Of a stretch of DNA of 34,785 nucleotides, positions 9,010 to 19,639 are shown one piece after another. Positions within the stretch are counted from its first letter, which is position 1; every line of letters starts with the position of its first letter. A program made the position numbers and the translations under genes. The stretch covers positions 1-34,785 of the forward strand of contig JAHEKY010000024.1 of assembly GCA_024644465.1 (NCBI GenBank), read 5' to 3'. Under the pieces are notes generated by a model that ran no database searches, was not told the origin of the DNA, and was given only the letters and a program-made list of their open reading frames with translations. This DNA comes from Ilumatobacteraceae bacterium (lineage in GTDB: Bacteria; Actinomycetota; Acidimicrobiia; Acidimicrobiales; Ilumatobacteraceae).

Positions 9010-10005
9010 TCACGTCCCCGGAGCGACGAGCCGGCCGAACGCCTGGCGCCACCTGACCGACAACCGATCGGACCGGACATCGACCGTGCCGGTCACGTCG
9101 AGCGGCAGCGCCCCGGGGATCTGCTCGAGCATCGTCCGGTCCTCCGCGCCGATCGCACGGTCGAACGCGAGCAGCTCCTCGGCCGGGAGGTCGTGGTCGT
9201 GGTTGCGCCAGACGACGAAGGTGAACAGCGACGACACATCGTCGACGGGTGTCGTGCACAACAGCAGCACTCGGTCCTGCCCCGCGCGCGGGCCGGATTC
9301 GTACGTCGTGTTCGACCGCACGCTGAACGGCAGCGCGAACCCCGTTGACATCGCCTGGCGGACGATGTCGCCCCGTTCGTCACGAACGTCGACGACGTAG
9401 CGATAGCCGGTGAAGTCGCCGTCGAGCTGCTCGACGTCGACCGCCCCGACGACGGGGTCGGTGTCGGCCCCGATCGTGCCGGCATGGACGAACGGGAAGT
9501 GCGCGACGTCACAGAAATTGTCGGTCATTCGCGTCGCAGACGTGTGCCACGTTTCGATGCCGGCGGTGACTCGTCGGTAGTCGGGGTCGGCGTCCTGCGC
9601 GATCGTGGGCGGTTCGCCGTTCGGCCGGCCGGGGCTGATCCACACGAGGCCGTATCGCTCGCGCGCCGGGCACAGCGCGAGGCGCGCGGTCGGTGGCACG
9701 GGCGCGCCGGCACCTGCCGACGGCACGAGTACGCACGCGCCGTCGGCGTCGAACGACCAGCCGTGGTACGGGCACACGAGGCAGCCGTCGGCGACCGTCC
9801 CCGCCGACAGTGGGCCGTGCCGATGCGGGCAGCGATCGGGCGCCGCGGCGATGGGACCATCGACGCGACCCCCTGCGGGGCGCCACACGACGTACCGCTC
9901 CCCCAGCAGCGTGACGGCGCGCGGCGCCTCGCCGACGTCGGACGCATCGGCGACGACATACCACTGATCGCGCAACCCGTCGCTGACCGCACCACCTTCG
10001 AACAC
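9010..10005 (-). CDS. Rieske-type mononuclear iron oxygenase, 331 aa
   Basis: This is the oxygenase component of a ring-hydroxylating or O-demethylating system. The Rieske 2Fe-2S motif is intact: C59-x-H61 (DRCPHRHG) and C78-x2-H81 (CLVCPYHGWSFD). The catalytic domain carries the non-haem iron motif around DNFCDVAHFPFVH, with D166 as bridging Asp and H169/H174 as ligands, closest to the vanillate demethylase/phenylpropionate class. Length fits single-polypeptide oxygenases. No ferredoxin or reductase gene is nearby, so its electron partner is encoded elsewhere and the substrate is unknown. The GTG at 10005 was chosen: the minus strand has TACGCT (10012-10017) 6 nt upstream, and longer frames would run into surE. 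Confidence 0.87.
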   Translation of the reverse strand: MFEGGAVSDGLRDQWYVVADASDVGEAPRAVTLLGERYVVWRPAGGRVDGPIAAAPDRCPHRHGPLSAGTVADGCLVCPYHGWSFDADGACVLVPSAGAGAPVPPTARLALCPARERYGLVWISPGRPNGEPPTIAQDADPDYRRVTAGIETWHTSATRMTDNFCDVAHFPFVHAGTIGADTDPVVGAVDVEQLDGDFTGYRYVVDVRDERGDIVRQAMSTGFALPFSVRSNTTYESGPRAGQDRVLLLCTTPVDDVSSLFTFVVWRNHDHDLPAEELLAFDRAIGAEDRTMLEQIPGALPLDVTGTVDVRSDRLSVRWRQAFGRLVAPGT

Positions 10006-17779: not shown

Positions 17780-18682
17780 GTGCACGTCGACTGGGGTGAC
17801 GCAGAACGGAAGCTGTCCGCGAACGTCAGCGTGCTCGTCGGTGAGTCGAACGGTGCCTATCCGTCGGGGAACTCGCTGGTCGTCAGGGGCAGCAGCGAGG
17901 CGGTCGTGATCGATCCGTCGGTGACCGTCGTCGAGATGGGGGGCGTCCCGGCGTCGATCGACGCCGTGATCAACTCCCACAGCCACGAGGACCACGTCGC
18001 CGGCAACGGCCTGTTCGCCGACGCGCGGGTCCACGTCCACGACGCCGACCTGCCCGGCGTTCGCAGCATGGACGGGCTGATGGCGGTGTACGGCCTCGAG
18101 GGCGACGCTCGCGCGTCGTTCGAGCGGACGGTGCTCGACGAGTTCCACTACACGCCCCGCCCGGACGCGACCGGGTTCGGCGACGGCCACGTGTTCGACC
18201 TCGGCGGCGTGCGGGTCGAGGCAGTCCACCTGCCCGGGCACACTCGGGGCCACAGCGGGTTCCGGATCGGTGAGGTGTTCTTCCTCTCCGACATCGACCT
18301 CACCGGCTTCGGGCCGTACTACGGCGATGTCTGGAGCGACCTCGAGGACTTCGAGGCGAGCCTCGCCAGAGTCCGCGAGGAGGAGGCCGACTTCTACGTG
18401 ACGTTCCACCACAAGGGCATCATCGAGGGGCGGGCGACGTTCGTCGAGATGGTCGATGCGTTCGCCGCCGTGATCGGCCGGCGTCACTCGGCGATGCTCG
18501 ATTTCCTCGCTGAACCGCACACGCTCGACGAGATGCGCGCCCATCGGTTCATCTACCGTCCGCACGTGGAGATGGCGTTCGTCGAGTCGGTCGAGTTGCG
18601 CAGCGCGACGCTCCACGTCGAACGGATGCTGCGGCGTGGCGAGGCCGTCGAAGTCGCGCCCGGCCGGTTCCGCCGCGCCTGA
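17780..18682 (+). CDS. Metallo-beta-lactamase-fold hydrolase, 300 aa
   Basis: A binuclear-metal hydrolase of the MBL superfamily, cytosolic (no signal peptide). The HxHxDH motif is H67-S-H69-E-D71-H72, with further ligands H154 (LPGHTRGHSGF), D171 (FLSDIDLTG) and H210 (YVTFHHKG). The ~80-residue helical C-terminal extension (RRHSAMLDFLAEPHTLDEMR, then FIYRPHVEMAFVESVE) is seen in glyoxalase II-like and other MBL subfamilies. The substrate cannot be assigned; thioester or lactone hydrolysis is plausible given the neighbouring crotonase. The GTG at 17780 is supported by the TAGGGT box 6 nt upstream and by the family N-terminus starting here. Confidence 0.87.
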   Translation: MHVDWGDAERKLSANVSVLVGESNGAYPSGNSLVVRGSSEAVVIDPSVTVVEMGGVPASIDAVINSHSHEDHVAGNGLFADARVHVHDADLPGVRSMDGLMAVYGLEGDARASFERTVLDEFHYTPRPDATGFGDGHVFDLGGVRVEAVHLPGHTRGHSGFRIGEVFFLSDIDLTGFGPYYGDVWSDLEDFEASLARVREEEADFYVTFHHKGIIEGRATFVEMVDAFAAVIGRRHSAMLDFLAEPHTLDEMRAHRFIYRPHVEMAFVESVELRSATLHVERMLRRGEAVEVAPGRFRRA

Positions 18683-18709
18683 CCCCGCACCACCGTCGCA
18701 GGCCCGTCC

Positions 18710-18800
18710 GGTGAGAGGTGAGAGGCACAGGTGCCCCCAACTCTCACCGGAACGTCGTTCCGGTGAGAGTTGGGAGGCAGGGGTCCTCTCACCTCTCACC
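18710..18800. repeat. 91-bp nested inverted repeat in the hydrolase / crotonase gap
   Basis: The outer arms GGTGAGAGGTGAGAGG (18710-18725) and CCTCTCACCTCTCACC (18785-18800) are exact 16-bp complements. Inside them CCCAACTCTCACCGGAACG (18736-18754) and its exact 19-bp complement (18756-18774) flank a single T. The two halves are also related: CCGGTGAGAG occurs at both 18708-18717 and 18760-18769, so the left outer arm can alternatively pair with 18741-18750. It occupies most of the 174-bp gap (18683-18856); nothing else is recognisable there. It could be a terminator, a mutually exclusive RNA structure or a dispersed palindromic element. Confidence 0.8.
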
Positions 18801-18856
18801 GCAAGGGGTGGTGGCCGGTTGTCGGGAGGAGGCGGGGATGTGGAAATGTGCGGGCC

Positions 18857-19639
18857 ATGGCGCAGTTCACGACACTCCGTGCCGAGGTGACCGGCAGGAT
18901 CGGCCGGTTGACGCTCGACCAACCGGCGAAGCTGAACCCGCTCGGCACGGTGCCGCTCCGTGAGATCGCCGCCGCGGCGCGGTGGTTCGACACCACGGAC
19001 GCGGTCGTCGTCGTCGTGACCGGCGAGGGACGCGCGTTCTCCTCGGGCTTCGATCTCCGCGAGTTCGCGTCGGGCAGCGACGCCGCCGATGATGCGACAT
19101 CCGGGCGCGACCAGGCCGACCTCGGCCGGCGGATGGCGGACGCGATGGAGCGGATGAACGCGCTGACGATCGCGGCGATCAAGGGGCCGTGCGTCGGTGG
19201 CGGCGTGGTGCTCGCCGGCGTCTGCGATCTGCGCATCGCCGCGGATGACACCGTCTTCTCGATCCCCGAGGTCGATCTCGGCATCCCGCTCGCGTGGGGC
19301 GGCATTCCCCGCCTGGTTCGTGAGATCGGCCCGGCCCGGACGCGTGAGCTCGTGCTGACGTGCCGTCCGTTCGACGCGGTGGAGGCGCAGACGATCGGGT
19401 TCGTCAATCGCGTCGTCGCCCGAGCAGACCTGGAAGAAGTCGTCGACGGCATGGCCGAGGACATCGCCGCCAAGGCCCCGTCGGTCGTGCACGCGACGAA
19501 GCGGCAGGTCAACGCCGCCCTCGAGAACATGGCGTCGACCGGTGGCTCGTGGGCGGACGCCGACGTGCTCAGTGCCGCGCTCAGCGACCCCGAGGCGCGT
19601 GGCGCGGCGCGCCGGTACCTCGCCGACCGCGCCAGGTGA
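18857..19639 (+). CDS. Enoyl-CoA hydratase/isomerase (crotonase) family protein, 260 aa
   Basis: A cytosolic acyl-CoA enzyme of the crotonase fold. The first oxyanion-hole region is GRAFSSGFDLREF (~residues 58-70), the second is IKGPCVGGGVVLAGVCDLRI (~111-130), and FSIPEVDLGIPLAWGGIPRL supplies the active-site acidic position of hydratases. The C-terminal helices (HATKRQVNAALE) are typical. The specific reaction (hydratase, isomerase or other) is not decidable. ATG 18857 was chosen over an in-frame start at 18770 because the upstream part lies inside the palindrome region and is not conserved; AAATGT (18844-18849) is a possible -10 box 7 nt before it. Probably independent of the hydrolase gene because of the intervening hairpin element. 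Confidence 0.88.
   Translation: MAQFTTLRAEVTGRIGRLTLDQPAKLNPLGTVPLREIAAAARWFDTTDAVVVVVTGEGRAFSSGFDLREFASGSDAADDATSGRDQADLGRRMADAMERMNALTIAAIKGPCVGGGVVLAGVCDLRIAADDTVFSIPEVDLGIPLAWGGIPRLVREIGPARTRELVLTCRPFDAVEAQTIGFVNRVVARADLEEVVDGMAEDIAAKAPSVVHATKRQVNAALENMASTGGSWADADVLSAALSDPEARGAARRYLADRAR

Follow-up and report, generated by a model that had tools for sequence, protein, structure and literature searches.

The long palindrome between two genes of the window (the whole stretch of 34,785 bp analysed here) raises the question of whether its capacity to fold in alternative ways is what matters about it, or whether some other property has been conserved. At its widest, the inverted repeat has arms of 52 nt that are 81% complementary and enclose a single base, and its predicted folds are very stable, giving -50.3 kcal/mol for the + strand as DNA (z -10.9) and -115.3 for the intergenic stretch as RNA (z -7.8), with no shuffle equalling either. 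An earlier note, made from the letters alone, had described an exact 19-bp inner repeat around a one-base centre, which was borne out, and an exact outer repeat of 16 bp, which is real and measures 17 bp. It had also pointed out that CCGGTGAGAG is present twice, as indeed it is, because the structure consists of two 41-bp units, the second with its arms inverted (Table 1). Each unit by itself is an imperfect palindrome, and this copy looks nearly perfect because its inner half-sites (R) are of matching type and its short spacer happens to be palindromic.

Table 1. Parts of the window palindrome and its neighbouring genes, in window positions.
Feature	Position	Strand	Details
Whole inverted repeat	18703-18807		52-nt arms
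Outer exact arms	18709-18725 / 18785-18801		17 bp
Inner exact arms	18736-18754 / 18756-18774		19 bp; centre 18755
41-bp unit 1	18709-18749	+	half-site L 18709-18724; core 18725-18733 (ACAGGT); half-site R 18734-18749
41-bp unit 2, arms inverted	18761-18801	-	R 18761-18776; core 18777-18785 (AGGGGT variant); L 18786-18801
Spacer GAACGTCGTTC	18750-18760		11 bp, between units 1 and 2
Left flank	18683-18708		C-rich, TC edge; C-richness is a family feature
Right flank	18802-18856		G-rich, CA edge; G-richness is a family feature
Upstream gene, metallo-beta-lactamase-fold (PF00753)	17780-18682	+	stop 26 bp before unit 1
Downstream gene, enoyl-CoA hydratase/isomerase (PF00378)	18857-19639	+	start 55 bp after unit 2

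A search for the arms in the genome and its relatives, as the note had proposed, revealed the palindrome to be one of 34 loci and so not single-copy. Together these loci hold 68 units in a 3.37-Mb Ilumatobacter genome (G000). BLAST against the same genome gave 82 matches (40 of the 44 first-look candidates being scored), the half-site CGGTGAGAGGTGAGAG occurs 78 times with at most two mismatches (reversed control 0), and the outer heptamers recur 41 bp apart 69 times with at most one mismatch (control 0). Seventeen loci are inverted pairs, 13 are tandem arrays (6 ++, 4 --, 1 +++, 1 ++= and 1 ----) and four are single units. All 34 are intergenic, with at most slight overlap with gene ends predicted by a purpose-built codon-usage caller rather than a standard tool; 18 lie between co-directional, 11 between convergent and five between divergent genes. 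Several tandem pairs (C67:26902, C168:15660, C39:97363, C195:3231 and C51:4348) look like local duplications of a 62-bp unit plus spacer, since what follows the last unit is similar to the spacer. The same 41/62 architecture was found in two further genomes of the genus, G004 and G007 (I. nonamiensis YM16-303), but in none of the remaining seven compared.

The geometry of the family is rigid. A unit length of 41 bp fits all 68 units of G000, which were gathered at that preset length; a separate pass allowing 30-55 bp returned 64 matches at 41 bp and six at 34 bp, the latter an artefact of a tandem heptad. Among the 34 steps between neighbouring units in G000, 28 are of 62 bp, three of 72 bp (all in one array), two of 82 bp (in one array) and one of 52 bp, which is the window copy; its spacer is 10 bp shorter than the 21 bp found in all 16 other inverted pairs. 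The three independent exceptions thus differ from 62 by -10, +10 and +20 bp, and the spacers of the 72- and 82-bp steps hold repeats of about 10 bp. At C195 a 61-bp step arises from one more half-site, which is degenerate. The steps in G007 are ten of 62 bp and three of 61 bp, leaving out a chance match (C227:25259) and a 1068-bp gap between two doublets, and those in G004 are six of 62 bp and one of 61 bp. The decayed arrays of G004 break the 10-bp rule, with a 108-bp step at C580, read as 62 + 46, and a truncated second unit at C504. Steps of 10 bp would fit binding on one face of duplex DNA, the three events being few and all from one genome, and the option of a protein site raised in the earlier note gains support from this spacing.

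Conservation is distributed unevenly along the element. For the 16 inverted pairs at a 62-bp step, oriented by the core, mean pairwise identity was 98% and 96% in the outer half-sites (L), 82-84% in the inner half-sites and 74-80% in the core, with the middle of the spacer at 36% versus 31% when shuffled. The central ACCTGT (or ACAGGT) runs in the same genomic direction in both units, despite the inverted arms, in all 17 inverted pairs of G000 (binomial p 1.5e-5), the variant core of the window copy included. The same concordance was seen in nine of the ten callable pairs of G007 (three more were not callable) and in just two of the four callable pairs of G004, and core direction alternates in one G000 array (C149:11374). 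Core direction is unrelated to transcription, agreeing with it at eight of the 17 co-directional loci that have a single core direction; one further array is mixed.

Pairing was examined in the same loci. Between the units of the 17 inverted pairs no compensatory excess was detected when partners were permuted among loci, either in L (298 vs 296.7) or in R (249 vs 245.9, sd 4.4), and pairing of the cores fell far below the permuted value (43 of 153 vs 79.0, sd 9.2). L is nearly invariant within G000 and therefore only R and the core are informative here. Within 63 distinct units, L-R pairing was slightly under the shuffled value (877 vs 883.5, sd 3.6). A palindromic excess of the spacer (65 vs 47.5) was rejected, as it vanished once two conserved bases at each edge were excluded, leaving self-complementarity of the inner spacer at chance (43 vs 39.8). 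By these comparisons, folding is not the property conserved in the family. With near-invariant arms, near-random spacers, no compensatory changes and direct cores, the mutually exclusive foldings pointed out in the note are a by-product of the window copy. Its argument that exactness implies selection holds for the outer half-sites; the exact inner repeat is coincidental, inner arm types matching in six of the 17 inverted pairs.

The family is restricted to a narrow lineage. Among ten Ilumatobacter genomes the unit pattern was found 69 times in G000, 31 times in G007 and 17 times in G004, and 0-2 times in each of the other seven. A stricter pattern, applied to 397 genomes from the order (a sample without G004 and G007), recovered G000 and a single chance-like match in each of two others. 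A four-heptamer 41/62 pattern, which assumes no half-site sequence, matched four contigs among 84,980 species genomes (a set that may leave out G000 itself), all of them from Ilumatobacter nonamiensis YM16-303. A phage or plasmid origin was discarded, as the family had no match in phages or plasmids and the unit pattern none among viral contigs. The titles and opening parts of abstracts listed for Ilumatobacter and Ilumatobacter nonamiensis mention no such repeats.

Each carrier has its own form of L, CGGTGAGAGGTGAGAG in G000, CGGTGAGAGGTGAGAC in G004 and CGGTGAGATGTGAGAC in G007, genome-wide apart from a few deviants. At both intergenic sites common to G000 and G004 (C133 = G004:C580 and C149 = G004:C532), each copy has the L of its own genome. 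Two G004 loci (L107 and L110) have three GTGAGAG-type copies of the half-site heptad, an expansion that suggests slippage within L. No common intergenic site was found between G000 and G007 among the few orthologous neighbourhoods compared. This turnover of positions shows that copies spread, for which a pure host regulatory site would have no need.

Comparison with G001, the nearest relative compared as judged by the window genes (83% DNA identity vs 75-79% for others), revealed empty sites. At the window locus G001 keeps the neighbouring genes, with an extra gene between them, and the element is absent. Within the 742 kb of G001 searched, 11 of the 34 loci had a BLAST hit and five were aligned, of which C27, C170, C145 and C149 are without the element and C126 has an unreadable left side; with the window, the element is thus absent at all five syntenic sites read. 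At two loci outside the aligned five (C31 and C70:31946) the intervening DNA is longer in G001, and at C170 hardly any DNA separates the two convergent genes of G001. These empty sites could reflect gain in G000 or loss in G001. No target-site duplication was seen at the aligned sites C170 and C27, few sites being readable. The palindromic mobile element that the note had listed among its options is strengthened by a family that is multi-copy, lineage-restricted and absent from the syntenic sites of the nearest relative.

The flanks of the units have a composition of their own. Next to the unit in G000, C makes up 53% and G 19% of the left flank, against 20% and 49% on the right, a skew that fades by about 60 bp; 38 control intergenic regions show no such bias (C:G 496:498 in their left halves, 484:503 in their right halves). 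The same skew occurs in G007 (14 loci) and more weakly in G004 (8 loci). Insertion into a pre-existing hairpin was rejected because pairing between the two flanks of a locus did not exceed that between flanks taken from different loci (as good in 400 of 2000 permutations), which indicates that the C-rich and G-rich flanks are generic rather than locus-matched. The empty sites of G001 are also without part of the rich flank (left at C170, right at C27), and the flank may therefore belong to the element rather than reflect a target preference.

The obvious comparison for such a family is with REPINs, described as pairs of REP units in inverted orientation, a set distance apart, around a spacer that is less conserved (PMC3116915, in excerpt). 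Inverted doublets at a set distance make up 17 of the 34 loci here, 16 of the 17 at the 62-bp step, and many intergenic palindromic copies, single or clustered, are what the broader BIME/REP concept describes. Neither linkage to a RAYT gene nor the GT[AG]G tetranucleotide at the foot of the hairpin was found. Of 18 PF01797 (Y1_Tnp) genes from G000-G007 and G016 (L065-L082), in draft genomes and with the flanks read by eye, 17 have palindromes, inverted or tandem repeats on at least one flank, none of them of the CGGTGAGA type, and the eighteenth (G004b) is cut by a contig end. The repeats differ in sequence from one group of genes to another, left-hand ones commonly having CAG at the apex and right-hand ones CTG. 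GT[AG]G does not appear in the position table of the 68 units, where a stretch rich in C and T leads up to the stem, followed by T and then by C or G.

G000 encodes a single PF01797 gene of RAYT type (C125:8371), with a 25-bp palindrome on either side, CAAAGTTGTGTC[A/T]GACACAACTTTG, different from that of the window (L065; 8274-8298 with centre A on the left and 9142-9166 with centre T on the right). This palindrome has 82 copies in G000 with at most three mismatches (control 0). G000 thus has a transposase-linked palindrome family distinct from the window family, and the latter lacks the defining RAYT linkage since the only RAYT-type gene found has other palindromes beside it. The syntenic Y1 gene of G001 is flanked by CAAAGTTGTGCC[A/T]GGCACAACTTTG; a combined pattern matched 88 times in G001 and not at all in G007 (at most two mismatches), nearly all G001 copies listed being a two-base variant that matches that genome's own Y1 flanks. 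Other palindromes likewise stand beside the Y1 genes with readable flanks in the carriers, at one of one gene in G000, one of one in G007 and two of three in G004 (the third cut by a contig end). The assemblies are 83%, 99% and 69% complete, respectively, so that a Y1 gene could be missing from G000 or G004. By motif and length the G000 Y1 gene resembles TnpAY1 subclass 2.1; in the excerpt of the study that divided TnpAY1 into classes, this subclass was not found beside REPs (PMC6006769).

With the REPINs and BIMEs of Pseudomonas, E. coli and others, the window family shares short non-coding intergenic palindromic units, mainly inverted doublets, a fixed distance with a variable spacer and some tandem clusters. 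It differs in having no linked RAYT and no GTAG/GTGG foot, and in its C-rich/G-rich flanks, 41-bp units, two non-equivalent half-sites, direct asymmetric core and 10-bp spacing steps. GTAG and CGTC REP families, their dimers and TIRYTs have been described, the CGTC repeats without a transposase (PMC3733652, in excerpt). The CGTC-tagged REPs (Di Nocera 2013, PMC3733652) are also dispersed palindromes, often dimers, for which the excerpt reports no dedicated transposase, but they differ in unit sequence and length, the conserved unit here has no CGTC end motif, and the phyla given for them in that excerpt do not include Actinobacteria. The TIRYT-like Y1-linked palindromes of the genus are similarly dispersed in the same genome and species-specific in sequence; they are 25-bp singles flanking a Y1_Tnp gene, whereas units of the window family stand beside none of the Y1 genes read. 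MITEs resemble it as short, non-coding elements with inverted terminal arms and presence/absence between relatives, but the window family has no target-site duplication at the aligned empty sites and no known cognate transposase.

Several explanations can be weighed against this background. Very stable folds and the nearby upstream stop codon might suggest an RNA attenuator or terminator that exchanges one long hairpin for two short ones, as the note had contemplated. This is very improbable given that neither fold shows compensatory pairing in the 17 inverted pairs, that the cores are anti-complementary in the long fold and that element direction is independent of transcription. Furthermore, the T-run of an intrinsic terminator is absent, no terminator or promoter consensus was found, and at 13 of the 34 loci the units stand in tandem, an arrangement that does not let the long two-unit hairpin form in the same manner. 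Rfam gave no match at gathering score, with only sub-threshold matches to microRNA models of the kind that any long hairpin may give. The first observation of a nested palindrome is confirmed and its reading as a switch is not supported. A bidirectional transcription barrier at gene ends, where C-rich, G-poor RNA would load Rho and transcription would then meet a roadblock at the bound palindromes, appears improbable. In its favour, the 5' side flanks are C-rich on both strands to about 50-60 bp, also in G007, and convergent pairs account for 11 of the 34 loci but for just two of the 38 intergenic regions, each 60 bp or longer, that served as controls (Fisher p 0.0045). Against it, this enrichment may be inflated as the control set is without short convergent gaps, and five loci are divergent and have the same flanks.

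A site for a site-specific recombinase would account for inverted arms around an asymmetric core (GACCTGTC / GACAGGTC, with a central CT/AG) and for the direct orientation of paired cores. It is hardly credible, however, as the serine recombinase domain PF00239 is absent from G000 and G007, and tyrosine recombinases (PF00589), which occur in all ten genomes (three in G000, six in G007, nine in G004 and one to four in the others), fail to set the three carriers apart. A separation of 62 bp is also probably too short for two sites to recombine with each other. It is conceivable, although on the whole unlikely, that these are true REPINs, non-autonomous and copied as single-stranded hairpin DNA by a RAYT (an HUH/Y1 transposase) whose gene is absent from the assembly or lost, or which acts in trans. 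Doublets dominate, with arms inverted at half of the loci (17/34), the fixed distance and poorly conserved spacer recall REPINs (PMC3116915, in excerpt), Y1_Tnp genes are present in genomes of the genus, and the homogenised species-specific sequence resembles the Y1-linked palindromes of G000 and G001. Against this, the readable Y1 genes are flanked by other palindromes even in the nearly complete G007, the foot is absent, near-random spacers beside a near-identical L are not expected from recent whole-element copying, and the two hairpin loops would point the same way on one strand.

The family is best read as REPIN/BIME-like interspersed palindromes, ordinary in kind; what is unusual in it is the rigid phased geometry, the direct cores, the free spacers and the absence of a linked transposase. 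On balance we lean towards a lineage-restricted non-coding family of this type whose 41-bp units would serve as duplex binding sites for a putative protein that bridges paired sites. Each element would present two sites with centres about 62 bp, or six helical turns, apart; the protein would read each as double-stranded DNA through the outer L, the inner R and the asymmetric core, two sites on the same helix face could be bridged into one complex, and selection may keep the sites after insertion. Copy number, fixed geometry, 10-bp steps and half-sites conserved beside free spacers are all observed, as are direct cores, intergenic placement, absence from the sites of the nearest relative and a species-specific L. 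No cognate protein was found for the family. The decayed arrays of G004, its core concordance of two in four, the alternating array at C149:11374 and the turnover of positions between G000 and G007 count against this reading.

The usual view takes interspersed palindromes for hairpins on which RAYTs act. More tentatively, and with less likelihood than the duplex-binding reading itself, the units might constitute a class of paired chromosomal landmarks, helically phased and directional 41-bp duplex sites that are scattered between the genes of a genome and change together with a putative co-evolving DNA-binding protein. If so, they would represent a lineage-specific nucleoprotein system insulating genes or organising the chromosome. 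Uncompensated pairing changes, helical spacing steps, a free spacer and the lack of any linked RAYT found contrast with the hairpin view, and make a duplex-binding function testable in I. nonamiensis YM16-303; the RAYT-type gene of G000, with palindromes of its own, provides an internal contrast. The family also offers an Actinomycetota case for how such palindromes are kept and homogenised. A single predicted gene of I. nonamiensis lies between two doublets that are about 1.1 kb apart (L104, G007:C392, 82.1-83.4 kb). Contigs C235, C237, C331 and C348 of that genome start within about 20 bp of a half-site, and the repeats therefore probably broke the assembly there.
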